Source: Massilia antarctica (GTDB lineage Bacteria > Pseudomonadota > Gammaproteobacteria > Burkholderiales > Burkholderiaceae_D). Taken from it: a stretch of 64,000 nt of DNA. The DNA lies in contig NZ_CP065053.1 in assembly GCF_015689335.1 (NCBI RefSeq), forward strand, positions 5,952,001 to 6,016,000. Reading direction: 5' to 3'. Under the pieces are notes generated by a model. That model ran no database searches. It was not told where the DNA came from and saw only the letters and a program-made list of their open reading frames with translations. The stretch's first letter is position 1, and the number at the start of each line of letters is the position of its first letter. Both the position numbers and the translations under genes were made by a program. Below, piece by piece: positions 30,705 to 64,000 of the stretch.

Positions 30705-32012
30705 ATGACAAATTATTCTGATATTTGCATAGTTGGCGCCGGTATAGGGGGATTGACTTGTGCGACCCAATTGATGAACGCCGCCGCTGGCAAGAATTTG
30801 CGGGTCCGGGTGTTCGACATGGATACGACCGTGGGCGGCCGCATTCAGTCGCGCAAGATAGACGAGGAGGAAATCGCCGAACTCGGTGCCGCCCGCTACT
30901 CGCCGCAGCTCCATCCGCATGTCGAGCAGCTCATGCGGGAATGCGGACTGGCGCATGCGACCTACCCTTTCACCCAAGTCGTGTCGCTCGATCGCGCACA
31001 GGAAAAGCTGAAGGCCACCCTGGTGAGCCTGAGTGCGATGCTGAAAGAACATCCGAATGAGTCTTTCCTTGAATTCGTCAGCCAGTATCTGGGCGCCGCA
31101 GAAGCCACCCGCATGATCAAGGCCACTGGCTATGACGCCTTGCTCATGCCGGTCATCTCGGCAGCCATGGCTTACGACATCCTCAAAAAGCACCCGGAAA
31201 CCCAAAGCTATACCGAAAATGCCGCCAACGAATGGCGCTATGCCACCGAAGGCTACAGCGAGCTGCTGAGCCAGCTGCAGCGCCAGGCACAGGACGCCGG
31301 CGTGGAATTCCGGCTGGGGCATCGCTTGCTGTCGGTTGAAAAATGCGGCGCCGACCATGCTCTCGCCTTTCGCCATATGGGCGATACCCAGATGCATAGG
31401 GCACGCCATGTGATCATGACCATTCCGCCGAGCGCGATGAAGCGCCTGAACGTCGACTTTCCGGCTTCCTTCAGTCCCTTCCAGTACGATTCCCTGCCTT
31501 TGTTCAAAGGCTTCCTGACCTTCGATACGGCGTGGTGGGACGCGCTCGGGCTGACCGACAAAGTGCTGATGGCCGATAATCCCCTTCGGAAAATCTACTT
31601 CAAGGGCGACAAATACCTGGTGTTCTACACCGACAGCGCCAGCGCCACCTACTGGCGCGAATACCTGGAGCAAGGGGAAGACGTGTACCTGGACCGGGTG
31701 CGCCACCATCTGAAAGAAGTGCTGCCGCTGAACGGCCAGCCGCTGCCGCAGATCAAGGCGCATTTTTACAAGCACTGGCCCCATGGCGTCGAGTTCAGCC
31801 TGGAACCGGAAGCCGAGCATCCGGCCACCCTGCTCCACCGCAACGGCATCATTTCCTGCTCGGACGCCTATACCGCGCATTGCGGCTGGATGGAAGGAAG
31901 CCTGATCAGCGCCGGGCACGCCACGCGCCTGTTGCTGGAACGGCTCAACCAACCGGCTGAACAATCCGACGACGGTTTTACACGCCTCACCTCCCAGACT
32001 GAGCGCGCATGA
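30705..32012 (+). CDS. vioA: VioA, FAD-dependent L-tryptophan oxidase (435 aa)
   Basis: First step of violacein biosynthesis: oxidises L-tryptophan to indole-3-pyruvate imine, releasing hydrogen peroxide. The N-terminal FAD-binding motif is IVGAGIGGLTCATQL (residues ~8-22), followed by the monoamine-oxidase-like R-G-G-R substitute TTVGGRIQSRKID (about 43-55). A C-terminal FAD contact lies in the GWMEGSLISAG block. Length is slightly above the 418 residues of Chromobacterium VioA. The ATG has a good ribosome binding site (AAAAGGAA). Its stop overlaps the vioB start by 4 bases (ATGA), so the operon is translationally coupled from the outset. Confidence 0.96.
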   Translation: MTNYSDICIVGAGIGGLTCATQLMNAAAGKNLRVRVFDMDTTVGGRIQSRKIDEEEIAELGAARYSPQLHPHVEQLMRECGLAHATYPFTQVVSLDRAQEKLKATLVSLSAMLKEHPNESFLEFVSQYLGAAEATRMIKATGYDALLMPVISAAMAYDILKKHPETQSYTENAANEWRYATEGYSELLSQLQRQAQDAGVEFRLGHRLLSVEKCGADHALAFRHMGDTQMHRARHVIMTIPPSAMKRLNVDFPASFSPFQYDSLPLFKGFLTFDTAWWDALGLTDKVLMADNPLRKIYFKGDKYLVFYTDSASATYWREYLEQGEDVYLDRVRHHLKEVLPLNGQPLPQIKAHFYKHWPHGVEFSLEPEAEHPATLLHRNGIISCSDAYTAHCGWMEGSLISAGHATRLLLERLNQPAEQSDDGFTRLTSQTERA

Positions 32013-35000: not shown

Positions 35001-35026
35001 GGGGAAAGATGTCAAGAGAGGCCTAA
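32009..35026 (+). CDS. vioB: VioB, iminophenyl-pyruvate (IPA imine) dimer synthase (1005 aa)
   Basis: Couples two indole-3-pyruvate imine molecules into the dimer that VioE uses. Typical start MSILDLPRFHFRGFARANVP and full family length (Chromobacterium VioB about 998). The central and C-terminal part has a ferritin-like domain: DLELSLMLQYLYAAYAI near residue 618 and EIAHEEMLHYLMVNN near 674, whose Glu and ExxH residues fit a metal site. The enzyme was originally described as heme-containing. It overlaps vioA by 4 bases, and its stop directly abuts the vioC start. Confidence 0.96.
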   Translation: MSILDLPRFHFRGFARANVPTANRNTHGHIDIATNAVSIAGEPFDLRRPPSEFHEHLKQLAPRFNAAGKPDPEGIFSEAAGYNFCGNNHFSWENARITGVQLRDGEVDTQDALVGAKLALWGHYNDYLRTTMNRARWVDSNPAEPDSTLIYAGQFTLSGKQATPNTPSLFSADIGPAHSVRWVGNGHISERQGHFLDDEFGRSRLFQFSVAKQDPHFLFNPDTPLPDSMRALQQALADEDVLGLTVQYALFNMSTPQKPDSPVFYDLAGSIGLWRRDELATYPAGRLLLPRQGSLGPVLVKVHADRVSLNMPTAIPFTTREAGAVSEQHPTHALGGKRALGDLLLHRASGRLIARIPEQLYLDYWRHHGVVDVPLLHPATAAGSLSLSSAQAQWDETDWVLQSDSNQLYLEAPNRHKRQDFPQTITVQSRLRGELAVHPALTAQAQDGALVSAQVAPSALGDGYAELTLTGRRPGATRIMLGEAKGQQFIGARVLPDDWDLDEVPAEQVDYAFLYRHVMSYYELVYPFMSDKVFSLADHCKCETYSRLMWQMCDPQNRDKSYYMPSTRELSQPKARLFLKYLTQVEAAAKTTLPQAGARHVIGCKGELIAELKTAIDLELSLMLQYLYAAYAIPNHAQGMKLVEAGRWLPDELELACGTEDRRRNSGARGALLEIAHEEMLHYLMVNNVLMALGEPFYAGAPALGEQARQRFGLDTEFAFEPFSEHVLARFVRFEWPDYLPTPGKSIATFYAAIRQGLADLPDLFDAGGGKRGGEHHLFLKELTNRAYPAYQLEVSDRDSALFAIDFVTEQGEGVAVESPHFAVSHFQRLRELAGRFSARGKPFEPAVPALKNPVLEARADCTLVTDRKARSLMRLYQGCYELTFQLMAHHFAQKPLGSLRRSRLMNASIDIMTGLLRPLSAALMNMPSGVPGRNAGPPVPEPITTTIDSDYSLGCEMLAQKCLALAQYARSLEADVVGMAQIAMLEFFNQQLTDLSRGKMSREA

Positions 35027-36316
35027 ATGCACAAAATCATCATCGTAGGCGGCGGCCTGGCCGGTAGCCTGAGCGCCATCTATCTGGCGCAGCGCGGACA
35101 CCAGGTCCACGTTGTCGAAAAGCGCAGCGATCCGCTGCTGGAAAGCGCGGCAAACGCCGATCCGGTCAGTTCGCGCGCCATCGGCGTCAGCATGACCGTG
35201 CGCGGCATCAAGGCGGTGCTGGGAGCCGGGATCAGCAAACACGACCTGGACCAGTGCGGCGAGCCCATCGTCGGCATGGCATTTTCGGTCGGTGGTCAAT
35301 ACAGGGTGCGCGAACTGGCTTCGCTGGAAGGCTTGTTTCCCCTATCGCTGGACCGCACCGCGTTCCAGCGCCTGCTGAACAACTACGCCGCCAGGCACAA
35401 GGTGACCTACTATTTCGGGCATAAGTGCCTGGATGTCGACCTGGAAAAGAAAACCGTGCTGATCCAGGGCGAGGATGGCGTGTTGCAGCAGTTGCAGGGC
35501 GACCTGATCATCGGCGCCGACGGTGCGCACTCCGCAGTGCGGCGTGCCATGCAAAGCAGCATGCGGCGCTTCGAGTTCAAGCAGAGCTTTTTCCGGCACG
35601 GCTACAAAACCCTGGTGCTGCCGAACGCGGCGGAACTCGGCTTCCGGAAGGATCTGCTGTATTTCTTCGGCATGGATTCGAAAGGCACGTTCGCCGGCCG
35701 CGCAGCCACCATCCCGAACGGCAGCATCAGCTTCGCCATTTGCCTGCCCTACTCCGGCACCCCAAGCCTGACCACGCACGACCGCGAAGCCATGACCGGC
35801 TTCTTCAGCCGCTACTTCGGCCGCCTGCCGCAAGCCAGCCGGGACGCGCTGCTGGAGCAGTTCCTGGCGCTGCCCAGCAACGACCTCATCAATGTCCGCT
35901 CCAGCACCTTTCATTACAAGGGCAATGTGGTCCTGGTCGGCGATGCGGCGCACGCCACCGCCCCCTTCCTCGGGCAGGGCATGAACATGGCGCTCGAAGA
36001 TGTCCAGGTCCTCGTCACCTTGCTGGACCGCTACGGCGACGACTTGGCGCGCGCCCTGTCCGAGTTCACGGAGCAGCGCAAGGTGCAGGCTGACGCCATG
36101 CAGGATATGGCGATCGCCAACTACGAAGTGCTGAGCAACCCGAATTTTATTTTCTTCCTGCAGACCCGGTACACCCGCTACATGCACAAGAAATTTCCCC
36201 GTGTTTATCCGCCCGACATGGCGGAGAAACTGTACTTCACATCGGTTCCTTACGATGTGCTGCAACAAATCCAGAAGAAGCAAAACGTTTGGTACAAACT
36301 TGGAAGGGTAAACTAA
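35027..36316 (+). CDS. vioC: VioC, violacein synthase (FAD monooxygenase, 429 aa)
   Basis: Late-step flavin monooxygenase that hydroxylates the second indole ring (C2) to give, after oxidative decarboxylation, violacein; acting on the non-hydroxylated precursor it gives deoxyviolacein. Rossmann motif IVGGGLAGSLSAIYLAQRG at residues ~5-23, the DG motif IIGADGAHSAVRRAM near 162 and the GD motif VVLVGDAAHATAPFLGQG near 302 are the three hallmarks of the PHBH-type fold. The length equals that of Chromobacterium VioC. Start and stop are directly contiguous with vioB and vioD. Confidence 0.96.
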   Translation: MHKIIIVGGGLAGSLSAIYLAQRGHQVHVVEKRSDPLLESAANADPVSSRAIGVSMTVRGIKAVLGAGISKHDLDQCGEPIVGMAFSVGGQYRVRELASLEGLFPLSLDRTAFQRLLNNYAARHKVTYYFGHKCLDVDLEKKTVLIQGEDGVLQQLQGDLIIGADGAHSAVRRAMQSSMRRFEFKQSFFRHGYKTLVLPNAAELGFRKDLLYFFGMDSKGTFAGRAATIPNGSISFAICLPYSGTPSLTTHDREAMTGFFSRYFGRLPQASRDALLEQFLALPSNDLINVRSSTFHYKGNVVLVGDAAHATAPFLGQGMNMALEDVQVLVTLLDRYGDDLARALSEFTEQRKVQADAMQDMAIANYEVLSNPNFIFFLQTRYTRYMHKKFPRVYPPDMAEKLYFTSVPYDVLQQIQKKQNVWYKLGRVN

Positions 36317-37431
36317 TGAACATTCTCGTCATCGGCGCCGGACCAGCCGGACTGATCTTTGCCAGTCAAATGAAGCAGGCCCAACCCGCCTGGAATATCA
36401 GCATTGCGGAAAAAAATACCCAGGAAGAGGTGCTGGGCTGGGGCGTGGTGCTGCCGGGACGCCCGCCGCGCCATCCCGCCAATCCGCTGTCTTACCTGGC
36501 GCAGCCGGAACAGCTCCATCCGCAATTCTTGGAGGAATTCAAGCTGGTCCACCACGACCAGCCGAACCTGATGAGCACCGGGGTGACGCTGTGCGGCGTC
36601 GAACGGCAGGCCCTGGTGCAGGCGCTGCGCGCCAAATGCGTGGCGGCCGGCATCACGATCAGTTACGAGACCCCGCTGGCCAGCGTGGCGCAACTGGAAG
36701 CCGGATACGATCTGGTGGTGGTGTCGAACGGCATCAACCACACATCGCTGGAGCTGCCGCAAGCGCTGGCGGCGCAGGTCGATTTCGGGCGCAATAAATA
36801 TATCTGGTACGGCACCACCCAGCTGTTCGACCAGATGAACCTGGTGTTCCGCGAGAACAAGCACGGTCTTTTCATCGGCCATGCCTATAAATACTCGGAC
36901 ACGATGAGCACCTTTATCGTCGAGTGCAGCGAAGAGACGTATGCCAAAGCCGAGCTGGGATTCGATTCCGCGCGCGACGCCGCCTATATCGCCAAGGCGT
37001 TCGCGCCGGAACTGGGCGAGCACAGGCTGGTCAGCCAGCCGGGCCAGGGCTGGCGCAACTTCATGACGCTCAGCCACGATGTGGCCAGCGACGGCAAGTT
37101 CGTCCTGATCGGCGACGCGCTGCAATCGGGCCACTTCTCGATCGGCCATGGCACCACCATGGCGGTGGTGGTGGCCCAGCTGCTGGTGAAAACGCTCAGC
37201 GCCGAAGCCGACACGGCCGCGGCCCTGGCCAGCTTCAACGCGCGCGCGGTGCCACTGGTCAAGCTGTTCAAGGACCATGCCGACGCCAGCCGCCTGTGGT
37301 TTGAAAGCGTGGGCGAGCGTGCCGCTCTGAGCAACGCCGACCTGACCGCCAGCTTCGACGCGCGCCGCAATCACTTGCCGCCGCTGCAGGACGCGCTGAT
37401 GGCCAGCCTCGGCTACGCCCTCGGTCGCTAA
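36316..37431 (+). CDS. vioD: VioD, protodeoxyviolaceinate monooxygenase (371 aa)
   Basis: FAD- and NADPH-dependent monooxygenase that hydroxylates C5 of one indole ring before VioC acts, so it decides violacein versus deoxyviolacein. Rossmann motif ILVIGAGPAGLIFASQM at residues ~3-19, and the C-terminal FAD motif FVLIGDALQSGHFSIGHGTT. The ATG at 36316 shares one base with the vioC stop (TAATG); an in-frame start 27 bases earlier would lie inside vioC and is rejected. Length is close to the 373 residues of Chromobacterium VioD. Confidence 0.95.
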   Translation: MNILVIGAGPAGLIFASQMKQAQPAWNISIAEKNTQEEVLGWGVVLPGRPPRHPANPLSYLAQPEQLHPQFLEEFKLVHHDQPNLMSTGVTLCGVERQALVQALRAKCVAAGITISYETPLASVAQLEAGYDLVVVSNGINHTSLELPQALAAQVDFGRNKYIWYGTTQLFDQMNLVFRENKHGLFIGHAYKYSDTMSTFIVECSEETYAKAELGFDSARDAAYIAKAFAPELGEHRLVSQPGQGWRNFMTLSHDVASDGKFVLIGDALQSGHFSIGHGTTMAVVVAQLLVKTLSAEADTAAALASFNARAVPLVKLFKDHADASRLWFESVGERAALSNADLTASFDARRNHLPPLQDALMASLGYALGR

Positions 37432-52414: not shown

Positions 52415-53644
52415 TCAGTTCCCGTTTTCCTCCGACACATCGGTGTAAGGGAGATACGAGCGGCGCGCCGGATCGACTTTCACCATGAGCATGCCGGCCG
52501 CGCCCACATGCCGGTTCGGGCCAAAGCGCATGTCCGGCAAACCATCGACACCAAAGGCGCGCAGCTGTTCGATGGCATGAACGAAGGTCTCGCGGTCGAG
52601 CCTGCGCCCACTGCGTTTGAGTGCCTCGACCAGGATCGCGACCGCGCCGAGCGCCAGGCGTTCCTGCACCGGCCGCGCGGCGCCGGGATAGGATAAGGCG
52701 GCCGGTGCGGCCAGGCGCAGGCGGCGCGCCGCGTCCGGGGCCAATACGAACACCGTGCTGCCCGCCTGCATCGCCAGCGCATAGATGGGTACGGCCGCCA
52801 CCTTGTGCGCAACGCCTGCCAGATGGGCGCCGTCGCCCAGCGACAATACGGCAACTGCGCCATTGCCACGCGCGTGCGAACCGGCCAGCGGCACCAGGGT
52901 GATACCACGCGCCACGGCCCGCGCCTGTAAAACCCGCACGGTATCGGGTTCGGTGTCGGCGGCGGCCGACAATGCCAGCGTTGCCCCGCTGGGCGCCGCG
53001 GCCAGTGCCTGATCGAGCATAAAGCGCGCCTGCGCCTCGCTGCCCGGCAACAAGCCGAACGCGGCGGCGCCAGTGCCCGCGCCAGGCGCGATCGATGGCG
53101 TGTCAGGCGGCAGGTCCCTGCCCCAACCCAGGATCGCGAAGACGGCCGCGCCCGGATCACGCTGAAGCACCAGGCGCCGGCCGTAAATGCCGCCAACGGC
53201 ATTGATCCGCGCGAAACCAGCCTGCACGGCCGGCACGACGCTCGCATCGAGCCGCACGCCGATCATCAAGGTATCGGAACCGATGCCGGGATCGGCATCG
53301 GCCTCGCTGCCCAGCACGTCCAGATAGGCCGACAGGTCGGCCAGCGCACCGGCATCGAAGCGATAGCGCGGCATCAGCCGATGCAGCGCGCGTCCGGCGG
53401 AGAGGCCATCGTTGACCGCCAGCCGCAGCGAATCGAGGTCGGCCTTCTGCCCCGCAAAACGCTGCAAGGCAGGCGCCGCGACGGCGCCTTCACGCCGCCC
53501 CTCGCCGTGGCGGCCGTGGCAGCGCGCGCACGCGGCCGCACCGCTCTGATAGGCCGCACGCCCGCGCTCCACCGTCGCCTGTGCCCCGGCCCAGCCACCC
53601 GATACAAGCAGGCAGGCAGCGAGCATGGCGCGGCCGGAGGTCAC
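52415..53644 (-). CDS. Cytochrome c / type I periplasmic-binding-protein fusion (409 aa)
   Basis: Signal peptide (residues ~1-22, ending AGAQA) followed by a class I cytochrome c domain with the heme-binding motif CARCH (near residue 38) and a candidate Met axial ligand (LMPRYRFDAG near 91). The rest, from about residue 120, resembles a periplasmic amino-acid-binding protein of the Peripla_BP type (DTLMIGVRLDASVVPAVQAG, VGGIYGRRLVLQ). The GTG start overlaps the stop of the double-SCO gene by 4 bases (GTGA). It is the last gene of the LodA operon and may be the electron acceptor or a ligand sensor in the periplasm; the function is inferred. Confidence 0.8.
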   Translation of the reverse strand: MTSGRAMLAACLLVSGGWAGAQATVERGRAAYQSGAAACARCHGRHGEGRREGAVAAPALQRFAGQKADLDSLRLAVNDGLSAGRALHRLMPRYRFDAGALADLSAYLDVLGSEADADPGIGSDTLMIGVRLDASVVPAVQAGFARINAVGGIYGRRLVLQRDPGAAVFAILGWGRDLPPDTPSIAPGAGTGAAAFGLLPGSEAQARFMLDQALAAAPSGATLALSAAADTEPDTVRVLQARAVARGITLVPLAGSHARGNGAVAVLSLGDGAHLAGVAHKVAAVPIYALAMQAGSTVFVLAPDAARRLRLAAPAALSYPGAARPVQERLALGAVAILVEALKRSGRRLDRETFVHAIEQLRAFGVDGLPDMRFGPNRHVGAAGMLMVKVDPARRSYLPYTDVSEENGN

Positions 53645-54693
53645 GGCCGCGCGCTCAGCATCGGCACCACCGCCGCCACGATCCCGGCCGGCGCGCCCAG
53701 CGCCATCAGCTTCTTCCATTCACCGGTGCGCAAATTGCCGGCCAGCAGAATGGTGCTGTGATCATCGATCTGTTCGCCGTTGTAGCCGCCCAGCTTGTAG
53801 CGCACCCAATCGACGTTCTCCTTCTTGCCGGTCAAAAAAGTCCAGCCCGGCTTGATCTGGAAACGGCGCGCGAAATCGCGCAATACCATGGGCGTGTCGG
53901 TGCCGGGATCGACCGTGATCGACAGCATGTGCACATCGTGCCCGGCGCGCTCGCCCAGCAAGGCCTGGACCCGCGCCAGGTTGGCGGTCATCGGCGTGCA
54001 AATGCCGGGGCAGGTGGTGAACATGAAATTGATCAGCACCACCTTATCCTTCAACATGTCGTCGTAAAAGCGCACCGCCTGCCCGTCCTGGGTCAGCAGC
54101 GGCAGATTGGTGAAATACGTGGCCGCCACATCGCGCCCCGTCTTGACCGGCCCGGCCGCCTGCTGCGCCGCGCGCACGATCTCGGGCGCCGACGCCAAGC
54201 CTTCGAGCCGGGTCCAGCTGCCGACGCTGTCATTGATCACCAGTACCAGGCCGCTGTGCTCGGCCGGCGCCGCGCCGCCCGCACCGAGCGCCGCCAGCAA
54301 GGTATCGACTTCCGGCTTGCGGCCCGTGACAAAGTGCCAGCCCGGCCCGGCATCGAAGCGTTTGGCAAACGCCTTCAGGCGGGCCGGCACATCGACCGCC
54401 GGGTCGATACTGATCGAAATGAGGGCAATATCGCTCCCGACCCGCGCGCCCAGGCTTTTTTGCACCTCGCGCAGGGTGGCTGCCTGGGTCGGGCAAATCA
54501 TGGTGCAACTGGTGAAAATGAAATTGACGATGACGGTCTTGTCCTTGACCAGATCGCGGTAAAACGCCACCTGGCGCCCATCCTGGTCGAGCAAGGATGC
54601 TTCCGGAACCGCCTTCGGCGCCGCCTGGGCCATCAGCGCCCAGCACCACAACACGCCCATGCACAGCCACTGTGCGTTCATGCGTCTGCCCAT
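53641..54693 (-). CDS. Tandem double-SCO1/SenC protein (350 aa)
   Basis: Signal peptide or anchor at residues ~1-24 (LCMGVLWCWALMAQA). Two complete SCO-type thioredoxin-fold domains follow. Domain 1 has SCTMICPTQ (CX3C near residues 63-67) and the His partner in AEHSG near 146. Domain 2 has TTCPGICTP (near 229) and DDHSTILL near 312. SCO proteins deliver copper to CuA of cytochrome oxidase or act as thiol redox factors; each domain has the Cys-Cys-His copper site. Two fused SCO domains are unusual. The start at 54693 has TTTTGGAGG just upstream. It overlaps both neighbours, so it is translationally coupled in the operon. Confidence 0.85.
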   Translation of the reverse strand: MGRRMNAQWLCMGVLWCWALMAQAAPKAVPEASLLDQDGRQVAFYRDLVKDKTVIVNFIFTSCTMICPTQAATLREVQKSLGARVGSDIALISISIDPAVDVPARLKAFAKRFDAGPGWHFVTGRKPEVDTLLAALGAGGAAPAEHSGLVLVINDSVGSWTRLEGLASAPEIVRAAQQAAGPVKTGRDVAATYFTNLPLLTQDGQAVRFYDDMLKDKVVLINFMFTTCPGICTPMTANLARVQALLGERAGHDVHMLSITVDPGTDTPMVLRDFARRFQIKPGWTFLTGKKENVDWVRYKLGGYNGEQIDDHSTILLAGNLRTGEWKKLMALGAPAGIVAAVVPMLSARP

Positions 54694-55766
54694 CGTTGCC
54701 TCCAAAAGTCTGAATCCGGCCAGCGCCGTTCGCGCCGGTAATAGTGGGCGCGCTGCACAAGATAATCGGCATACATGCTGCCGATCCGGTCCGCGTAGGC
54801 CGGCATGGCGCCCGGGTCGCCGCCGAGGGCGGCAGCGAGCGCGCCGGCAGCGGCCAGTGCCTGGTCGAGCGCGCTCATGATGCCCTGCGACGACAGTGGA
54901 TCGACACTGGCGGCAGCGTCGCCCACGGCAAGCCAGTCGGCGCCGGCCGCTTGCGCCAGGCAAGCGCTGTAGGCCGGCACGATGGCAGCGGCTGCCTCGG
55001 CCTGGCCGCCGTGCCGTACCAGGCGCGCATGCGTCAGCGGCGCACTGTCCGGCCGGGGCGGCCCGGCCAGGGTGCGCCGCCGCTGCCGGCCCGCCTCGGT
55101 CATGTACACCAGCACCAGGCGTCCCTGCGGCAGCGGCGCCGAGTACCACCAGCCGTCGCGTTCGGCTTCGATCAGGGTATGGCATGGCACCTTGTTGCCG
55201 GCGCCATGATAGGTAACGACCCCGACCAGGTGATCGAGCGGACGGCGCGCGCTGCCGCAACGGCGCGCCACAGCCGCGCGGCGCCCGGTCGCATCGACGA
55301 CGAAGCGCGTGTGCCAGTCCAGCGGACCGTTGGGACCGGCCAGCCGCAAACGCCAGCCGCCAGCCACCCTCGCCAGCTGCTCCAGGCGGGTGCCGCCATG
55401 CAGCATGGCGCCGCACAACTGCGCCTGCCGGCGCAAGGTGGCGTCGAAGCGGCCGCGCTCCAGATGCCAGCCATTGCCGTAGGGGCTGAACAGGAAGTCG
55501 CGGCCGGCCGCCTCCGGCGCGCCCCAGGCCGACATATTGCCGAGCGACTCCAGGTGGCCATCGGCGAGGAACGCATCGAACACGCCAAGCCGCTCCAGCG
55601 CGACCCGGATACCCGGCCCGACCGACTCGCCCACCGCCAGCCGGGGCCCGCTATCGCACTCGGCCAGCAGTACGCGATGCCCTGCGCGCGCCAGCGACAG
55701 CGCCACGGCCGCGCCGGCCGGCCCGGCGCCAATCACGGCCACATCGGCGTCACAAGGCGCCATCAA
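54678..55766 (-). CDS. LodB-like FAD-dependent oxidoreductase (362 aa)
   Basis: FAD-binding fold with VAVIGAGPAGAAVALSLARAG at residues ~8-28, a DATGRR-type motif near 163 (VVDATGRRAAVARR), and the GD motif WLAVGDAAASVDPLSSQGIM near 277. This matches the flavin-dependent halogenase / geranylgeranyl-reductase-like clade to which LodB belongs. LodB-like proteins are needed to form the cysteine tryptophylquinone cofactor of LodA-type oxidases, probably by hydroxylating the tryptophan. The gene is adjacent to and overlaps the LodA-like gene by 4 bases, so it is read here as its maturation partner. It has no signal peptide, as expected for a cytoplasmic modifier. Confidence 0.82.
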   Translation of the reverse strand: MMAPCDADVAVIGAGPAGAAVALSLARAGHRVLLAECDSGPRLAVGESVGPGIRVALERLGVFDAFLADGHLESLGNMSAWGAPEAAGRDFLFSPYGNGWHLERGRFDATLRRQAQLCGAMLHGGTRLEQLARVAGGWRLRLAGPNGPLDWHTRFVVDATGRRAAVARRCGSARRPLDHLVGVVTYHGAGNKVPCHTLIEAERDGWWYSAPLPQGRLVLVYMTEAGRQRRRTLAGPPRPDSAPLTHARLVRHGGQAEAAAAIVPAYSACLAQAAGADWLAVGDAAASVDPLSSQGIMSALDQALAAAGALAAALGGDPGAMPAYADRIGSMYADYLVQRAHYYRRERRWPDSDFWRQRWADA

Positions 55767-58700
55767 TGCGGCGTTCCCATGCCCCAGATGTGGTGCGGCC
55801 GCCCGTCCTTGCCCTTGGACAGATAGTTGGTCGACACCATGCCCGTGTGCGGCACCACCGGCAGCGGCGCCTTGGCGGCCAGATGCCGGCCGCGCACCAT
55901 CTTACCCACCGGACAGCCCATGCCGATCCACTGCACGATGATGCTCTTGTAACTGGCGCCATCGGTATTTGCCGGGATCGCCTGGAACGCCGTTGCCATC
56001 GCGCCGTTACCGGCCAGCATGCTGGTCACCAGCGGACTGTTGAGCGGATCGAAGCGCTGCACCCAGCCGTTGCGTTCGCATGCCAGCGCGCGCATCAGGG
56101 CATCGTTGTCCTGCAGGGCGAACCAGTCCTGGATCGCCATCGATACCAATGGCGCGTCCTTGGCGGCGGGATCGGCGCAGCGCGGATCCGGGCCTTCCAG
56201 CTGGACCCGGTGCCCGCTGACGCCCATCTGGCGCTGACGCATGAAGTCGATGGTCAGGTGCATGCGCTGCGCGATATCGGTGTGCACGGCCGGCTTCTGT
56301 CCCAGATACAGGATGTAGTCCTGCCACAGCTTTTGTTCCGCGGCCGAGAACACGTGGTACATCGGCCCGTTAAAACCGATCAGCTCGAGGATGGTGCTGT
56401 GCGCCAGATCCCCCGGCACGATCAGGCCGGCCTTCTGCATTTCGTGCAGCAGGCCGAGCGGGTCGAGCATCCAGTCGTTGATCAGGTTCGGCCCGAGCAT
56501 TTTCTCGCGGTGGGCGCGGCTGGCGTACGGCGCCTTGGCCTGGATCATCGCCACCATGCGGTCTTCCGGCGTTGGCGGGCTGCTGCTGGCGTTGGCCAGG
56601 TCGTCGCCCAAGGTTCCCAAGGTGCCGAACGCCACATACCCGGTCCAGATGCGTTTCCAGACCTGCTGCATGGCCGCTTCGCCTTCCGACTCGCGCACCT
56701 GGTCGAGGTACATCTCGACGCAGGCCTTGGCGACGGCCCCGTGGCCGGCACTGGCATTGTCGATCCCCAGGTGCAGCGCGTAATACAGCGGATTGATGCC
56801 CAGCGCCTTCATCTGGTCGACTGAGCTGAGCAGGCCGATCGCACTCCATTCCAGGTACAAGGTCATGCCCAGCAACTCCGGCATGAATTCATCGCCGAAC
56901 TGCGAGATCGCCAGCAGGAACACGGGCTGGGTAAAGGCTGAAGGGAACAAGTCCGGATTGTCCGCATACGCGCGCGTATGCAAGTCCGGCAGGTAGATAT
57001 TCAAGCTCTTGAGCAAGTCGGTGTAGACGTTGGCGTGGTTCTGTTCCACGTTGCCATCGCCCATCTCGTCCATGCGGATGCTGAACATCATGGAATCGAT
57101 CGAGCCGATCGGGCCGTCCGGCGTGATGCCGCGCAGCCAGGCGCCGTCGAGCTGATTGAATGGCGCCATCTGGAAGATGCTCCTGATGACGCTTGCGCGG
57201 CTGTTGCTCAGGTAACTCTGGTGCGCGCTGCCGCTCTGCTCGACCTCGTACTGCTGCCGGGCCGAACTGAGGCTGGCGTCGCGCACGAAATTGTCGTAGA
57301 TCAGTTCGAGGCGCGCATCGAAGCTGTCCTTCGTAAAAGGAAAGAACTTCCAGACTTCGTCAGGATCGGCCTGCTCCTGATTTTGCCAGGCTTGCGCGAG
57401 AAATTCGCCCACCAGGCTGTGCGCGCGCGGCAGGAAATCGCCGTAGGACGCGATATTCATCAGGTAGTAGAAATAGTCGCGCATATTGGCGCCCATGTAA
57501 GGCGAGCGCTCCGTCTCGATCATCACGGTTTGTCCGTTGACCTGCTTGCGCACGACGAAACCCAGGTCTTTCCAAAGGTCGACCATGGCATTGTCGAGGC
57601 CGGGCGACGCGGGCGGCAAGCCGCGCGCCCACGGCACGCGCTTGGCCAGCACCGACGACAAGGGTTGCTTGTCGATCCTGTCGTCCGATTGCACGCTGGC
57701 GTCCAGGGTCCCGACCGGCACCACGTCGTCCGGACGCTGGGCCGGCCACCAGTTGGTATTGCACTCCGAGAAGTCGGCCTGCCATGGCAAGGCCATGTGC
57801 ATGGTCAGGCCGCCCGGCGCCGTGGCCGGGTTGATCCGGCACAGACCGGCCCAGGTACTCGCCTCACGCGAGAAATACGTCATTTCAATGCCAGGATAAA
57901 AGGCGCCGCCGACGCAGGGTTCGAGCGCGGCGCGGTCGAGCGCGGCCGGTTGTTGCGCCACGGGCAAGGAAGACAGCGGCGGCGCCGCGCCTGGCTCGCC
58001 CTGCCAGTCGGCGCTGAAGTCGCCTTCGGCCCAGCGTTTCATCTTGGCGTATTGCACCGGGCTGAGCGTGAGCCAGGTGACATACACGCCGCTGCCCGGC
58101 AGCGGCGCGAGCGGCGACCCGTCGGCCAGCACGGTCGCTTCGCCGCCATCGCCCGACATCTGCGGCATGAAGCTGGCGTTGGCGTAGCGCAGGGTTTCCG
58201 GCGTGTCTTTTGCATCCGCATTGGCGGCGACCAGGTTGGGCGGACGCAGGCGGCCGAACACGTGGGCGCGCGCATCGCGGAACAGCTCCTCCTTGCTGTT
58301 CGACGCCAGCGCCAGGAACACCGGATTGCTCGCGCCCATGAACGAACCCTGGGCCGTGTCGCTGCCGTGGCCCCGGTTGGCGGTCTTGTTCAGCCAGGTG
58401 AAGGTGTCGAGCCGCTTGAGGATCGGATACACGTCCTGCATGAACGACACCGCATCGCTCTCGGCGGCGTCGCCCACCGCTTCGCGCGCGATATCGTACA
58501 GCGTGGTCAGGGTTTCGGCCGCCGGCACGAACTTGGGCACGGCGCACAGCACCCAGGCCTGGTCCTTCATGGTCACGCTGGTGCCATCGTGCAGCACCAC
58601 GGTGGCGCTGACCGGGCCATCGGAGATGTCGTCGTACCAGTAATCGTTATTGGCGTAGGAGCTGCCCACGTTCAGCAAGCCGATCGGATTGTTCGGAATC

Positions 58701-59482
58701 AGCGAGCCCGATTTGCCGGCGCCCCCCAACACCAGCAAGCGGCCATCGCTATCGGTGCGCAATTCGCCCAGCGGCACCTCGAGCTTGGGCGACTGCGCCA
58801 CCGGTTTGATCACTTCGCCCGGCGTCCAATACTGCGTTTTCAGCGGCGGCGATTGATTGGGCGGCACATCCGACGCCTTGATGTTCATGTAGCCGTCGCG
58901 GCTGCCCCGCACCCAGTCCGGATCGGCGCCGCCCTGGGCCGGCATCAACACCGTGTAGGGCAACGGCCCGATGGTGCCGCCGTCGAACCTGACCCGCACG
59001 CCGGGATCGGTGCCGCTGATCGAACGCGGGCCGGGGTCGATCACCAGCCGTTCGCGCTCGGGCGAACCGCCCGGGATTTGCTGGTTGCGCAGCGGCGGCG
59101 CGTGCGGATTTTTTTCATAGAAATCGGGATACTGGCTCTGCCAGAAGCGTCCCAGGAACATATTGTTGACCGCCTTGCGGTTGGCCAGGTGCACGGTCCA
59201 GGTGATGCTGGCGTCGGCCGCCGTCAATTCGCGGATCGGCTGGTCGTTGGCGTCGTAGGCGTAAATGCGAAAGCGCGCGGCCTGGCGCTTGATGCGACCA
59301 TCGGCATCCTTGTAGCCGCCCGGCGGATCGACCACCTCGCCGGGCGACTCCGGGCCGCAATAGTAGGCGTCCGGGCTGTTGCCGGCGCGGGCGATGCCCA
59401 GCCCGGGGTGGATGCGGCAATAGGCAATCGCCGCTGCGGCGGCGGCGCTGCTGGTGCTGCTGGGATCTCGATGTGTGCTCAC
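55763..59482 (-). CDS. LodA-like CTQ oxidase fused to heme-oxygenase-like diiron domain (1239 aa)
   Basis: The N-terminal ~700 residues match the LodA/GoxA family of cysteine tryptophylquinone oxidases, from the opening CRIHPGLGIARAGNSPDAYY to the block LPWQADFSECNTNWWPAQRP, in which Cys574 and Trp578/Trp579 are candidate cofactor residues (which pair is crosslinked is not established here). LodA enzymes oxidise amino acids such as lysine and release hydrogen peroxide. From about 750 a second module follows: PELLGMTLYLEW (Glu869, Glu878) and YYALHLGIDNASAGHGA (His904, Asp908, His914), matching heme-oxygenase-like diiron proteins. LodA itself is about 730 residues, so this is a fusion. GTG start with AGGAG upstream. 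No classical signal peptide. Confidence 0.83.
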   Translation of the reverse strand: MSTHRDPSSTSSAAAAAAIAYCRIHPGLGIARAGNSPDAYYCGPESPGEVVDPPGGYKDADGRIKRQAARFRIYAYDANDQPIRELTAADASITWTVHLANRKAVNNMFLGRFWQSQYPDFYEKNPHAPPLRNQQIPGGSPERERLVIDPGPRSISGTDPGVRVRFDGGTIGPLPYTVLMPAQGGADPDWVRGSRDGYMNIKASDVPPNQSPPLKTQYWTPGEVIKPVAQSPKLEVPLGELRTDSDGRLLVLGGAGKSGSLIPNNPIGLLNVGSSYANNDYWYDDISDGPVSATVVLHDGTSVTMKDQAWVLCAVPKFVPAAETLTTLYDIAREAVGDAAESDAVSFMQDVYPILKRLDTFTWLNKTANRGHGSDTAQGSFMGASNPVFLALASNSKEELFRDARAHVFGRLRPPNLVAANADAKDTPETLRYANASFMPQMSGDGGEATVLADGSPLAPLPGSGVYVTWLTLSPVQYAKMKRWAEGDFSADWQGEPGAAPPLSSLPVAQQPAALDRAALEPCVGGAFYPGIEMTYFSREASTWAGLCRINPATAPGGLTMHMALPWQADFSECNTNWWPAQRPDDVVPVGTLDASVQSDDRIDKQPLSSVLAKRVPWARGLPPASPGLDNAMVDLWKDLGFVVRKQVNGQTVMIETERSPYMGANMRDYFYYLMNIASYGDFLPRAHSLVGEFLAQAWQNQEQADPDEVWKFFPFTKDSFDARLELIYDNFVRDASLSSARQQYEVEQSGSAHQSYLSNSRASVIRSIFQMAPFNQLDGAWLRGITPDGPIGSIDSMMFSIRMDEMGDGNVEQNHANVYTDLLKSLNIYLPDLHTRAYADNPDLFPSAFTQPVFLLAISQFGDEFMPELLGMTLYLEWSAIGLLSSVDQMKALGINPLYYALHLGIDNASAGHGAVAKACVEMYLDQVRESEGEAAMQQVWKRIWTGYVAFGTLGTLGDDLANASSSPPTPEDRMVAMIQAKAPYASRAHREKMLGPNLINDWMLDPLGLLHEMQKAGLIVPGDLAHSTILELIGFNGPMYHVFSAAEQKLWQDYILYLGQKPAVHTDIAQRMHLTIDFMRQRQMGVSGHRVQLEGPDPRCADPAAKDAPLVSMAIQDWFALQDNDALMRALACERNGWVQRFDPLNSPLVTSMLAGNGAMATAFQAIPANTDGASYKSIIVQWIGMGCPVGKMVRGRHLAAKAPLPVVPHTGMVSTNYLSKGKDGRPHHIWGMGTPH

Positions 59483-59519
59483 GCGGCTCTCCTGTTGGGT
59501 ATCGGTCGGGGTGCTTGCT

Positions 59520-61343
59520 TCATTCGATGGCAGTCAAGACCAACCGGGTCGGATCGGCCCAGCGCAGGCCCAGCGACGGGGCCTGGAAATGCATGAAGTA
59601 CAGGCCAGGCGCGGGCGCGGCGAAGTCGACGCTGTAGGCGCCGTTGCCCTGGGCGCTGGCCAGCAAACGCGTTTGCGAGATGCCGGAGGCGTCGAAAATG
59701 AGCACCTCGAGGTCGCTCGCCGGCGCCAGCCCGGCCGGCTCGCCGGCGGCGCCCACGCGCAGCAGCAGGCGCTGCCTGCGGCCCGCGGTCAGCGCGCCCT
59801 GCCCCGGTTCGAGCGCCACCGCCAGCGGGCGTGCCGGCCGGACCCCGTCCGCAGCGGCGATATCGAGCGCGAAACAGTGCAGCACGCGCGGCTGGTCCAG
59901 GTACATCACCAGCTGGTAGGCGCCGGCTGGCGGAAGCCGGGTGTCGACCCGGTAGTGTCCGGGGTCGCGCTCTTGCAGGCTGCGATCGACCACCATCAGC
60001 GCGCGCGGCGTGCGGCCGTAATTGCGGAACGCGCCGAGCGGCGCGGCCATGCCTTCCTTGTAATAGTAGATGCTGCGGTCGGCCGGATTGGCCAGCAGCA
60101 TGGCGTCGCCATTGGGCGCCGCCGCCATCACGCCGGCCAGGCTGCTGCGCTGGCCGGGCGCCAGCTGGCCGCCGGCGAAACCGGCTACCGTGATCGATTC
60201 GCCGCTGCGCCCCAGGCCGTCGAGCGCGACCAATTGCACGTCGGCCGCGCCCTGGCGGTGGATGTACGCCATGCGCCCGGAAAAAGCCAGCTGGTCCGGG
60301 CCGTTGCCGATGCGGGCGCTCTGGACGATCTGGTTGCTGGCGGTGTCGAGCACCTGCAGTTCGCCGGTCACGCCGTTGAGAATGAGTCCCAGCCTGCCCC
60401 CGGGGACGAAGCCGAGCTGGTTCACGCCGGGCGCACCGGCCAGGCGTGCCGCCACCCTCCCGCCGCTGTCGATGGCGACGATGCCGCCGCCGCTATCGGC
60501 CACATAGGCCAGCCGCGCGGCGCTCGACCAGGCCAGCGCGACCGGCGCCGCTCCGGTCGCGACCACGGCGCGCTGGCGCAGCGCCACCGCATCGATCACG
60601 GTCACGCTGCCGGCGCCCCGGTTGCTGACGAAGGCTGCCGCGCCATCGTCGCTGAAGGCAATCTCGTGCGGGCCTGCCCCGGTGTCGATGCGCGCGGCCA
60701 CCTTGCCGTCGGTGCTGCCCAGCACGGCGACACCGCTGGCGGTGGCGACCCAGACCCGGCCCATGCGGCCGGGCTGGCGCGCCAGGCGCGCCGGCTGCGA
60801 GCCGACCTGCGTGTTGGCGATCACTGTCCAGCTGCGCGTGTCGACCAGCGCCACCGCGCCGGCTTCCGGCATCGACACCAGTACGCGCTCGCCCTCTTGC
60901 AGCCAGTCGGCCCCGGGCGCCTGCAAGTCGACCAGCGCCAGCAACTTGGAACCGCCAAAGCCGTTGAGCGGATTGATCACCGAAATCGATGGATCCGCAT
61001 TCAGGGCCAGCACGTAATAGGCGTTCAGGTCGAGCGCCGGGGTGTCGAACCAGTTGCCGCCGACGAAGTGCGAAGCCTTGCGCCGGCACTCGCCGGCGTC
61101 GCCCGCGCTGTCCGGGCGCAGCCGGTCCAGCCACGCGGCCGGCCGCGCACCGCGCAGCGGTGCTCCCTGGCTATCGAGCAGGCGCAAGGTGAAGCCGACA
61201 TCGGCGCCGTCGCGCAAGGCGCCCGACGCGCTTAGTTGCACACGCACGCCCTCGTGCTCGATCTGGCCCAGCGGCACCGGCTGGGCCAGCAGCGCGCCCG
61301 ACAGCAGGCAGCCGGCCGCCAGCAGCATCGCGCGCGGCCCCAT
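59520..61343 (-). CDS. Secreted beta-propeller protein, YVTN/NHL-like (607 aa)
   Basis: Signal peptide at residues ~1-21 (MLLAAGCLLSGALLAQ). From about 120 to 420 there are repeated blades with the 'VxVID / VAxxGxxP' pattern (VWVATASGVAVLGSTDGKVA, AFVSNRGAGSVTVIDAVALR, LAYVADSGGGIVAIDSGG), typical of YVTN-type seven-bladed propellers. Flanking regions are beta-rich and unassigned. The start at 61343 shares a base with the stop of the upstream gene (TAATG), so translation is coupled. It lies 37 bases before the LodA-like gene and probably acts as an extracytoplasmic scaffold or docking partner of the complex; this role is inferred. Confidence 0.83.
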   Translation of the reverse strand: MGPRAMLLAAGCLLSGALLAQPVPLGQIEHEGVRVQLSASGALRDGADVGFTLRLLDSQGAPLRGARPAAWLDRLRPDSAGDAGECRRKASHFVGGNWFDTPALDLNAYYVLALNADPSISVINPLNGFGGSKLLALVDLQAPGADWLQEGERVLVSMPEAGAVALVDTRSWTVIANTQVGSQPARLARQPGRMGRVWVATASGVAVLGSTDGKVAARIDTGAGPHEIAFSDDGAAAFVSNRGAGSVTVIDAVALRQRAVVATGAAPVALAWSSAARLAYVADSGGGIVAIDSGGRVAARLAGAPGVNQLGFVPGGRLGLILNGVTGELQVLDTASNQIVQSARIGNGPDQLAFSGRMAYIHRQGAADVQLVALDGLGRSGESITVAGFAGGQLAPGQRSSLAGVMAAAPNGDAMLLANPADRSIYYYKEGMAAPLGAFRNYGRTPRALMVVDRSLQERDPGHYRVDTRLPPAGAYQLVMYLDQPRVLHCFALDIAAADGVRPARPLAVALEPGQGALTAGRRQRLLLRVGAAGEPAGLAPASDLEVLIFDASGISQTRLLASAQGNGAYSVDFAAPAPGLYFMHFQAPSLGLRWADPTRLVLTAIE

Positions 61344-64000
61344 TATTTCGGCGCGCCGCGGCGGCGCGGCGAGGAGCGCAACGCGGCCGCGGCCCGCGCC
61401 AGCGGCGGGCTGGATGCGACTGGCGCGGCACCGTAACGGGCCTGGCCGCCGAAAGGCGAGGCCACCAGCACGGTGTCGGGCAAGGTGGCGCTGGCGGTAT
61501 AGGTCCAGCGCCCATGCGGATCGACCGGCACCCTGGCCTGCCAGCCCTTCGTGCCGCTCAAGGTCAGGCTGCTGGTGCGTACCCGTTCGCCCGGCGCGGC
61601 AGCCGGCCGCACCGTGACCGTTCCGCTGATCTGGTAGCCGGCCCCGCTCGGCCGGACGGCGTCGATCGCGATGGTGTCGGGCAGGATGGCGCCGGCGGCG
61701 CCGGGCGCGACCCGGAACAAGCCCCACAATCCCGCCTGGTATTGGGCGGCGGTGGCGCTGCGGTACAAATAATCGCCGGGCGTCTTGAAGTGCCCGCCGG
61801 CCTGGGGAATGACGATATCGAAGTGCGAGGTCGGACCAACCCCGGTCGTGGCACCGGTCACGGCCGACTCCGGGTTGTGGCCGATCCTGGTCGAGCGGTC
61901 GAGATACGGCTGCTCCTGCCACTGGTGTCCGCTCAACTCGAACACTTGCTGGTTGTCGCCGATCCCGGGCGCGTGCAGCACGCGAAAACGCACCGGCATG
62001 CCGGCCGGGGCGCGAAATACCGGTGTCACCGGATCGCCTCCCGTCAGCGCGTTCGAGATGGCGCTGCTGGTGTCGATTGCCGAGTACGAGATGCTGCTCA
62101 GATTTCCCAGATCGCCTGCTTGCAAGTCATACCACGAAGCGGGTGGCGCCGTGCCGGCTTTTAACCCGGCAGCGGCGTTCACCCCGTAGCGATAGAAAAA
62201 CGGTTCGCTGCGGTAGTTAAAGGCCGACAGCGGCATGCCCGCGTCGTACAGCGGATTGCCATTGAGTTCCATCGAGATATCGTTCTGGAACATCAAGGTG
62301 AAATCGCGGAACACGCCACCGTCGGCGGCGAACACGGTGGCCGAAGTGCGCGTGCCAGGGTCTTCCACCCAGCTCGCGCCCTTCGGCTCGATGACGATCG
62401 CGCCGAACAGCCCGCGGTAAGCCTGCATCAAGGGGTCGGCCGGCTGCAGATTGACGGCGCCAAATTCGACCGGCGTTGCGCGCAGATCGCCATCGGCACC
62501 GCGTTCGAGGGTGCCGGCGTACCAGAGGTAGTCGCGGAAAGGCACAGCGCAATCGCGGCAAGCCGGGTCCCGCGGCGGCACCGTCTGCACCGGGTTGTTG
62601 CCCACGTTGGCGCCGTTCGACGAGGTGATGTCAAAGGCCAGCAGTTGCGGATGCAGGCCCACGCTGGAGGAGGTGCTCATCATAATGTCGGCATAGCCAG
62701 CCGAATAGGCGGTGGTGCCGTCCGGCCGGTTCGCCGATTCTTTCTTTCTAAACACACTGTCAGCGCCATTGACGCGATTGCTCAGGCGGACCTTGATCCA
62801 GTCGCCAGCGGCAGCGCGCAACACCAGCGGTTCGAGCGACACGCCTGGGCGCAGGCGCTCGCCGTCGAGAAGATCCTCGTCGCGCACATAGACGACGGCG
62901 TTCGGATCGTTCAGCGGGTGGCTGCTATCGTAGCCTTTTGGTCCGACATTGATGCCGCGCTCGTTGTATGAGAGCGTGCCTTTCTCGCCGAGCAGCTGCT
63001 TGACCGTCAGCGCCGATACATGGAACTGGCGCAGACAAGGCAGGCCCAGGCTGCAATCGTCCTTGAGATCGCGCGGCAGCGTGGTGGCCAGCGCCGGCGG
63101 TGGTGTCAAGTTGCCCGGCAATGGCGCCAGGTCCGGCGTCGCCTTGCGGTAGGCGCGCAACAAGCCCCAGGCGCCGTTGGTCAAGCCTTCGTAGGAGGCA
63201 CTCGGATTGTACAAATAATCGGCGCCCTGCTCGCCCGCGGTGCGCGGCACGGTGAACAAGGCTTCGAAGTGCTCGGACAAGATCATGAACTGGCTGTTTC
63301 GGAATCCGGAATTCGGATCGAAAGGCGCATGCTGCCACTTCAGGCCATGCATCGTGAAGTCGTGCATCGACGTGTGCGACCCGACCAGCATGCGGATCTG
63401 GACCGGGTCGTCCTCGTAGGCGCGCAACAGCGGCGTATACGGATCGGCCGGGTTCATGCCGGCACTGATCGGCCGGCGCGGGAATCTCAAGCAGTCGCCG
63501 GTGCACGCGGGGTTGATCCTGGCGCCGCCAGCCGGCTGGGTGTTCATCGCTGGATCAAGGCGCGGGATCGAGCGGAACACATGGGCCAGATCGGTTTCCA
63601 CCCCACCCGTGATGGGCGTGACGGGCGACGCGGCCACGCGCTGCGGCAGCGGCTCGCCCCGGTAATTCATCGACACGATGCCAGGGCCGAAGTCGCTGAT
63701 CAGGAACGGCTTCGGGCTCGCTGGGGGGCTGGGGGGCTGGCCGGCGGGCGGGCAGCCCGGACAATTTATCGCATGCACCGTGTCGGCCCAGCCGCGGTAT
63801 TCGGCGCCTGGCGCCAAGGGCTTGCATTGGAAAAATGCCGCAACCTGACCCGGGTAGCAATCGGGCTGGGCGCGGCTGCCCGCCCCGTACGCCAGTTGCA
63901 GGTCGCCCCAGGCCAGCGCGAATTCGCGGTAGGCGCGCTGCCCGCCCCTGGGCAGGATGTTGGCCGCATAGCTGGTTGGTCCGCCGTCGGCGCGCCGGCC
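61343..64000 (-). CDS. Multicopper-oxidase-like protein with lost copper ligands, 5' end beyond window
   Basis: The frame is still open at base 64000, so the N-terminus lies outside. At least 885 residues are visible. They show multicopper-oxidase-like cupredoxin features: SHTSMHDFTMHGLKW (a partial His-x-His region), GANVGNNPVQTVPP and LWYAGTLE, and a terminal cupredoxin with PGDYLYRSATAAQYQAGLWG. In active enzymes that last region carries the HCHxxxHxxxxM copper ligands; here they are replaced by R, S, A, Q/Y and L. It is thus either inactive as an oxidase or binds fewer coppers. The C-terminus is Arg/Ala/Pro-rich. It is coupled to the beta-propeller gene by a 1-base overlap. Confidence 0.78.
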   Translation of the reverse strand, partial: GRRADGGPTSYAANILPRGGQRAYREFALAWGDLQLAYGAGSRAQPDCYPGQVAAFFQCKPLAPGAEYRGWADTVHAINCPGCPPAGQPPSPPASPKPFLISDFGPGIVSMNYRGEPLPQRVAASPVTPITGGVETDLAHVFRSIPRLDPAMNTQPAGGARINPACTGDCLRFPRRPISAGMNPADPYTPLLRAYEDDPVQIRMLVGSHTSMHDFTMHGLKWQHAPFDPNSGFRNSQFMILSEHFEALFTVPRTAGEQGADYLYNPSASYEGLTNGAWGLLRAYRKATPDLAPLPGNLTPPPALATTLPRDLKDDCSLGLPCLRQFHVSALTVKQLLGEKGTLSYNERGINVGPKGYDSSHPLNDPNAVVYVRDEDLLDGERLRPGVSLEPLVLRAAAGDWIKVRLSNRVNGADSVFRKKESANRPDGTTAYSAGYADIMMSTSSSVGLHPQLLAFDITSSNGANVGNNPVQTVPPRDPACRDCAVPFRDYLWYAGTLERGADGDLRATPVEFGAVNLQPADPLMQAYRGLFGAIVIEPKGASWVEDPGTRTSATVFAADGGVFRDFTLMFQNDISMELNGNPLYDAGMPLSAFNYRSEPFFYRYGVNAAAGLKAGTAPPASWYDLQAGDLGNLSSISYSAIDTSSAISNALTGGDPVTPVFRAPAGMPVRFRVLHAPGIGDNQQVFELSGHQWQEQPYLDRSTRIGHNPESAVTGATTGVGPTSHFDIVIPQAGGHFKTPGDYLYRSATAAQYQAGLWGLFRVAPGAAGAILPDTIAIDAVRPSGAGYQISGTVTVRPAAAPGERVRTSSLTLSGTKGWQARVPVDPHGRWTYTASATLPDTVLVASPFGGQARYGAAPVASSPPLARAAAALRSSPRRRGAPK

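Follow-up and report, generated by a model that had tools for sequence, protein, structure and literature searches.

Do the six genes that run head to tail around a LodA-type quinoprotein gene in Massilia antarctica form a system built around that quinoprotein, or an operon of another kind that has taken it in? The genes lie at the end of the window (the whole stretch of 64,000 nucleotides analysed here, contig positions 5952001-6016000 of NZ_CP065053.1, from a 7.43-Mb single-contig genome) and run on the minus strand from 52415 to past 64000. Extended coordinates continue from the window into the upstream stretch, L002, with extended 64001 being L002 position 4001. We read the cluster as probably an MnxG-type manganese-oxidase operon with an integral module, consisting of a LodA protein fused to an HDO domain (LodAH) and a LodB-like flavoprotein, that likely couples peroxide formation to manganese redox cycling. 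Two separate clades, one of MnxG and one of LodA-HDO proteins, co-occur in fixed gene order in Beta- and Alphaproteobacteria and in Acidobacteriota. This conserved mnxG-operon variant with LodA is unreported as far as our searches of an open-licence library reach, in which the listed titles and abstract openings gave no report of a LodA-MnxG linkage.

Gene content and layout of the operon

The six genes, and the gene that flanks them, are listed in the order of transcription of the operon.

61343..64000, minus strand: MnxG-like giant multicopper oxidase, C-terminal part in the window (NCBIfam MnxG, PDB 9bxa)
59520..61343, minus strand: YVTN/YncE-like beta-propeller, 607 residues, signal peptide by eye (TIGR02276, TIGR03866)
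55763..59482, minus strand: LodA-HDO fusion (LodAH), 1239 residues, without signal peptide by eye (LodA_N, LodA_C, Haem_oxygenas_2)
54678..55763, minus strand: LodB/GoxB/QhpG-like flavoprotein, probable cysteine tryptophylquinone (CTQ) maturase, 361 residues (GoxB, LodB and QhpG matches)
53641..54681, minus strand: fused double SCO1/SenC protein, 346 residues, signal peptide by eye (two SCO1-SenC stretches)
52415..53644, minus strand: c-type cytochrome (CARCH) with a long C-terminal region, 409 residues from GTG, signal peptide by eye (sub-gathering matches)
Extended 67379-68641 (L002:7379-8641), plus strand: PsiD-like decarboxylase, divergent from mnxG (PDB matches)

An earlier note on this DNA had described one operon-like run of head-to-tail genes, and the junctions bear this out. 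The mnxG and propeller genes overlap by 1 base (TAATG), as do lodA-HDO and lodB (TGATG), and 4-base overlaps join lodB to sco (ATGA) and sco to the cytochrome gene (GTGA; 79 bases if an upstream ATG is its start). Between the propeller gene and lodA-HDO there is a 37-base gap, with AGGAG ahead of a GTG start. The note's 1- and 4-base overlaps and short gap were thus recovered, and its 16-base overlap was not seen. Between 52000 and 62000, sigma-70-like promoters numbered 0 (1.2 in shuffled sequence) and terminator-like sites 4 (4.6 in shuffles, thus at chance level), both minus-strand ones falling within lodA-HDO; such scans are weak evidence. Sigma-54 sites in L002 numbered 9 (12 expected by chance).

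The first gene had been noted as multicopper oxidase-like, which holds, but the window contains only the C-terminal part of an MnxG-like protein of 1840-1873 residues. Its frame runs past the window edge to a first ATG at extended 66964 (1873 residues), with an alternative GTG start at about extended 66865 behind AAAAGGAG (1840 residues) and the divergent PsiD-like gene beyond. The GTG is the likelier start, given that the frame in M. frigida is closed upstream of residue 29. The protein matched the solved MnxG structure 9bxa at E 5.3e-94 and, as in a multicopper oxidase, carries copper ligand motifs, which align with those of 9bxa; H486, H489, H491, H493, H540, C541, H542, H546, M551, H830, H832, H947 and H949 are conserved in 29-31 of 31 aligned MnxG rows. 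The families pfam07731 and pfam07732 matched just under their gathering scores. With NCBIfam MnxG (NF041487) the protein scored 1192.8 bits, below the equivalog cut-off of 3100; two other LodA-bearing MnxGs scored 1060 and 1069.1 bits, and a Burkholderiales mnxG locus without LodA reached 2405.9 bits, also below it.

The SCO protein carries two SCO1-SenC stretches (E 2.4e-37) with a CxxxC pair in each half of the translation. For the last gene, which had been called cytochrome c/periplasmic binding protein, the cytochrome part is borne out by a CxxCH motif and by matches below gathering scores (Cytochrome_CBB3 9.7e-5, Cytochrom_C 7.7e-4), while the binding-protein part matched nothing in the family libraries searched; we take this C-terminal region as substrate-binding-protein-like, judging by its position in the operon.

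These genes resemble a known system. The mnxG operon of P. putida GB-1 consists of mnxG, a YVTN propeller gene, two SCO genes, a gene for a substrate-binding protein with a cytochrome c domain, and SurA; in that system MnxG is the enzyme that oxidises Mn(II), and SCO is predicted to act as a copper chaperone (PMC11409713). The order mnxG, propeller, SCO, substrate-binding protein/cytochrome c is the same, and four of the six window genes match if the SCO fusion counts as one. In contrast to the genes listed for Pseudomonas, which include no LodA or LodB, the window has lodAH and lodB between the propeller and SCO genes, whereas the Pseudomonas operon has two separate SCO genes and SurA, which was not seen in the window (PMC11409713). 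The window MnxG also belongs to a clade that stands apart from the other MnxGs in our tree, from which the GB-1 protein is absent.

Conservation of the gene order and the two clades

The neighbourhood check proposed in the earlier note did not refute its system reading, and the neighbours are conserved at homologous loci in other genomes. A scan of genome contigs with LodAH only, blind to mnxG and covering close relatives only, returned 10 loci. When the 10 LodAH genomes were searched in full, 4 had an MnxG relative (M. frigida, Bradyrhizobium sp. SRS-191, an Acidobacteriaceae metagenome-assembled genome (MAG) and a gp7 Acidobacteria MAG), and in all four it adjoins a lodAH. The complete six-gene order was present in M. 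frigida (90-95% identity) and in Bradyrhizobium sp. SRS-191 (32-55% identity), and the order recurred in the two Acidobacteria MAGs (33-54% and 42-52% identity). All six genes were matched in order in the gp7 MAG (L049 and L105), while the Acidobacteriaceae MAG has mnxG, propeller and lodAH before its contig ends about 0.4 kb past lodAH. Because the order recurs at 32-55% identity in another class and in two Acidobacteria MAGs, its conservation, as judged by sequence comparison, is beyond chance. An SCO-cytochrome c fusion is suggested in the gp7 cluster, where a single open frame (L105:9254-10192) contains both the sco and the cytochrome match. On its two sides the Bradyrhizobium cluster has a weak phage-integrase match (L006:213-1403) and a large frame matching insect-toxin-complex families (L006:17278-23664).

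The remaining six LodAH genomes (five Streptomyces and B. uaiense) gave no MnxG match. Four of the five Streptomyces loci have lodAH-lodB, the fifth being cut by a contig end; at one, a propeller gene lies about 9 kb off on the other strand. No mnxG, SCO or cytochrome gene was found near lodAH at four Streptomyces loci, in B. uaiense or at a second M. frigida locus, and in the stretch around a second gp7 lodAH on another contig (L005) neither mnxG nor lodB was matched.

Control genomes showed the same genes from the other side. MnxG relatives occurred in 2 of 17 own-genus genomes, 6 of 300 of the order, 1 of 146 in the Bradyrhizobium sample (that one being the sample centre), 3 of 200 in the order of the genome G317 and 18 of 148 in the class of G318. 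With the centres G000, G317 and G318 left out, the controls comprised 34 mnxG stretches from 24 genomes, drawn from the sample of the order and from those around G317 and G318. No lodAH match was found at E 1e-3 in any of these, and one stretch (L080) had a weak LodB-like flavoprotein match (26%) on the other strand. The propeller gene follows mnxG in 25 of the 34 stretches; the propeller is directly followed by sco, without LodA, in 17, sco stands upstream of mnxG in 3 and elsewhere in 1, the propeller follows mnxG with no sco seen in 4 and runs in the opposite direction in 1, and 8 have mnxG without a propeller (contig ends cut 5 of these). With the LodAH C-terminal half as query (E 1e-20), a match over the greater part of it came only from the centre among 148, 300 and 200 genomes; partial matches, in frames of 477-778 residues, came from 1 of the 148 and 10 of the 300. 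In one of those ten, the mnxG genome G031, contig coordinates place the HDO frame over 2 Mb away from mnxG. LodAH matches in 3 of the 17 own-genus genomes were full length in the two MnxG carriers and, in the third, came via an ordinary LodA. The samples were centred on known carriers, so no P value was drawn from them; a hypergeometric P of 6e-5 for co-occurrence was set aside, since the three lodAH-positive genomes were the sample centres.

Trees were built from 30 MnxG proteins (fragments below 1500 residues were not used and L039 was left out as a long branch). A branch with 100/100 support, recovered in 100% of the 200 bootstrap trees, sets the five LodA-bearing MnxGs apart from the rest, and a quick 31-row tree gave the same clade. 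Among 13 LodAH rows, the partners of those MnxGs plus the second gp7 copy form one clade (100/99), which persists when L009 and L012 are removed.

The window genome and M. frigida align in a single run of 16,315 columns (93.3% identity), which covers the operon and the PsiD-like gene (extended 52385-68680). This 16.3-kb block sits in different surroundings in the two genomes: on either side of it, the stretches taken from that M. frigida contig show no similarity except a 77-base lodA-lodA match. As the carrier species span two phyla, horizontal transfer of the block is likely to have taken place across them. A reverse-transcriptase frame lies at extended 77334-78008. The violacein genes vioA, vioB, vioC and vioD, all above cut-offs (window 30705-37431), are about 15 kb from the operon and outside the shared block.

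The LodA-HDO fusion, its flavoprotein and the PsiD-like neighbour

That LodA is fused to an HDO domain and accompanied by LodB and copper-handling genes, as the note had it, agrees with the family matches. The 1239-residue protein matched LodA_N (2.1e-64), LodA_C (3e-29) and Haem_oxygenas_2 (PF14518; 2.1e-18), the last with 67.2 bits against a gathering score of 28.9. The CTQ residues of LodA are C516 and W581 (PMC4417212), which align with C574 and W579 of the window LodAH; W579 is conserved in 13 of 13 LodAH rows, and C574 and D570 in 12. A different CTQ pair, C523/W567, was dropped, as the published LodA numbering (PMC4417212) and the alignment gave C574/W579. In the B. uaiense relative (L012:10001-12938), R and G replace the CTQ Cys and the nearby Asp while the HDO positions are retained, and no LodB match was found in the stretch around it.

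Within the HDO region D779, E806, D809, H816, E869, E878, H904, D908 and H914 are invariant in all 13 rows. HDO ligand sets consist of three His and three carboxylates (3H/3C; PMC13108848), for which H816, H904, H914, E806, D908 and E869/E878 (13 of 13) are candidates assigned by alignment. A structure model of residues 600-1239 was mostly helical, with a mean predicted local distance difference test score of 72.6 and a predicted template modelling score of 0.52. A profile of the C-terminal part matched no solved structure at E 0.01, and phmmer gave weak matches to the HDO entries 9pfw and 9pfx (0.028 and 0.065). All 13 LodAHs with a complete C-terminus end in GxGxxH after a little-conserved tail (GMGTPH in the window, GYGAVH in B. 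uaiense, GNGVAH in the P. caribensis plasmid protein, L122). Shorter frames of 477-758 residues that distantly match the HDO part were seen elsewhere in the window genome (4376296-4377228) and in ten other genomes of the order Burkholderiales.

The flavoprotein whose gene adjoins lodA-HDO matched GoxB (2e-68), LodB (2.6e-65) and QhpG (3.6e-50), all below the equivalog cut-offs. LodB-type flavoproteins complete CTQ (PMC7876137), and LodA-type enzymes release H2O2 (PMC4417212). A lodA-like gene followed by a lodB-like flavoprotein gene, with the CTQ Cys and Trp conserved, is also the arrangement of the Marinomonas lodAB/goxAB operons (PMC4417212); unlike those, the window has an HDO domain and an mnxG cassette, and its LodAH scores below the GoxA and LodA equivalog cut-offs (329.7 against 750 and 182.3 against 600). 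LodA-HDO fusions and LodA operons with multicopper oxidase and tyrosinase genes are already published (PMC4417212), and neither is new alone. Five LodA-pfam14518 fusions (Table 3 of that paper) likewise join LodA to an iron-containing redox (HDO) domain, but the domain is there called N-terminal and no mnxG neighbour is named, whereas the window HDO is C-terminal and the protein ends in GxGxxH. The LodA operon of Bradyrhizobium japonicum USDA6 also pairs a quinoprotein with a multicopper oxidase bearing pfam07731 and pfam07732, but operons of this type hold a tyrosinase gene and a gene for 138-142 residues between lodA and lodB (PMC4417212); the window differs by its giant MnxG-like oxidase, SCO fusion, propeller and HDO fusion.

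Other lodA genes were seen nearby and elsewhere. A second, ordinary lodA-lodB pair (650 and 390 residues, no HDO match) lies at extended 71467-74588 on the minus strand, about 4.6 kb upstream of mnxG; such a pair is also present in the own-genus genome G003 and in M. frigida, there on another contig. The P. caribensis plasmid NZ_CP013105.1 has lodAH followed by a flavoprotein gene; further downstream, at about 7 and 9 kb, come genes for tyrosinase and SCO.

By sequence similarity the flanking decarboxylase is closer to PsiD than to phosphatidylserine decarboxylases: its best matches were L-tryptophan decarboxylases (9jer 1.5e-75, 8x4q 3e-71), and phosphatidylserine decarboxylase chains matched at about 2e-6 (6l06 1.6e-6). 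A GGST stretch is present in the window protein and its gp7 relative. The gene was found in M. frigida (92% identity) and in the gp7 MAG (49% identity), where it lies about 2.6 kb from mnxG and the frame in between looks chloride-channel-like by eye. The 34 other mnxG stretches, in which the upstream cover varies, gave no convincing match (E 1 or worse). A fragment resembling the PsiD C-terminal part (L041:5670-5846) lies just before the second, mnxG-free M. frigida lodAH-lodB. This neighbour may hint that the LodAH substrate is a decarboxylated amino acid.

Peroxide formation, manganese and rival explanations

In the mechanism that we propose, the exported MnxG-like oxidase would be copper-loaded by the fused SCO protein and, aided by the propeller and the cytochrome protein, would oxidise Mn(II) with O2. 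LodAH would be made in the cytoplasm, with its CTQ supplied by LodB, and would act as an oxidase on an amine or amino acid, yielding ammonia, H2O2 and an aldehyde or keto product. Its substrate would perhaps be made by the PsiD-like decarboxylase in Massilia and the gp7 organism, and the dimetal HDO domain would act on the same substrate or on the product. Peroxide formation would be coupled to Mn redox cycling, giving peroxide removal or a stronger extracellular oxidant. Mn(II)/Mn(III,IV) and H2O2 react readily, and for this reason the module most likely couples peroxide to Mn cycling. A single pathway, running from amino acid decarboxylation through CTQ amine oxidation with H2O2 formation to Mn(II) oxidation by MnxG, with the biogenic Mn(III,IV) consuming or amplifying the self-made peroxide, is a tentative extension of this, possible but rather doubtful.

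Several observations weigh against this interpretation. Mn(II) as the substrate is not assured, because MnxG scores below its equivalog cut-off, and the family scores do not give the substrate of LodAH. The LodAH and MnxG halves may sit in different compartments, which would speak against tight coupling, as by eye the MnxG, propeller, SCO and cytochrome proteins of the window have a signal peptide and LodAH has none in its four readable N-termini (window, M. frigida, Bradyrhizobium, Acidobacteriaceae). No PsiD-like gene turned up close to mnxG in Bradyrhizobium (8.7 kb of upstream sequence covered) or in the Acidobacteriaceae MAG (12.8 kb), and proteins of this kind are also frequent in other settings (24 plasmid records). 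Finally, the mnxG-linked LodBs did not group together in the LodB tree, which did not resolve them.

One rival is a small-molecule pathway, in which the PsiD-like decarboxylase, LodAH and HDO make an amine-derived product (for example a Mn(III) ligand, a pigment or a signal) and the MnxG-like oxidase acts on that product and not on Mn(II). The low MnxG score fits such a pathway, as do the nearness of the PsiD-like protein to L-tryptophan decarboxylases, the tyrosinase and SCO genes near lodAH on the P. caribensis plasmid, and the fact that several HDOs act on amino acids (PMC13108848). We nevertheless consider it unlikely, given that the copper motifs align with solved MnxG, that the PsiD-like gene occurs in only two of the four lineages and that, among the genes searched for, none beyond the six is common to all four.

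It is also conceivable, if quite improbable, that the genes merely reside together: a single ancestral lodAH-lodB insertion into an mnxG operon would have spread horizontally as a block, its parts working independently under one promoter. Retention of the active-site residues, and of the order at about 32-55% identity across phyla, argues against this, even though the tree is compatible with one origin and the 16.3-kb block is common to M. frigida in different surroundings.

Very improbable is the earlier suggestion of a LodA-centred peroxide weapon with the other genes as its copper/iron supply, electron-transfer and docking apparatus. In its favour, LodA and AlpP have lysine oxidase activity and are antimicrobial (PMC4417212), and the first Trp hydroxylation of LodA is described as copper-dependent (PMC7876137), which could give SCO a role with LodA. 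A LodA-centred reading of the propeller, SCO and cytochrome genes was nevertheless rejected because they accompany mnxG in LodA-free control stretches (with the propeller-sco adjacency given above) and are part of the Pseudomonas mnxG operon (PMC11409713, Table 4), and lodAH-lodB stands without mnxG or SCO at four Streptomyces loci.

With its LodA-HDO/LodB module, the MnxG-type operon brings to light an MnxG clade found in more than one phylum and a LodA-HDO subfamily whose C-terminal GxGxxH is invariant; the PsiD-like decarboxylase gives a clue to the substrate. The reason for bacterial manganese oxidation is still described as unknown (PMC11930936), and a manganese-oxidase operon with a conserved quinoprotein module offers a genetic handle on the purpose of that oxidation. 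If the single peroxide-manganese pathway is true, it would provide a physiological role for bacterial manganese oxidation in these organisms.

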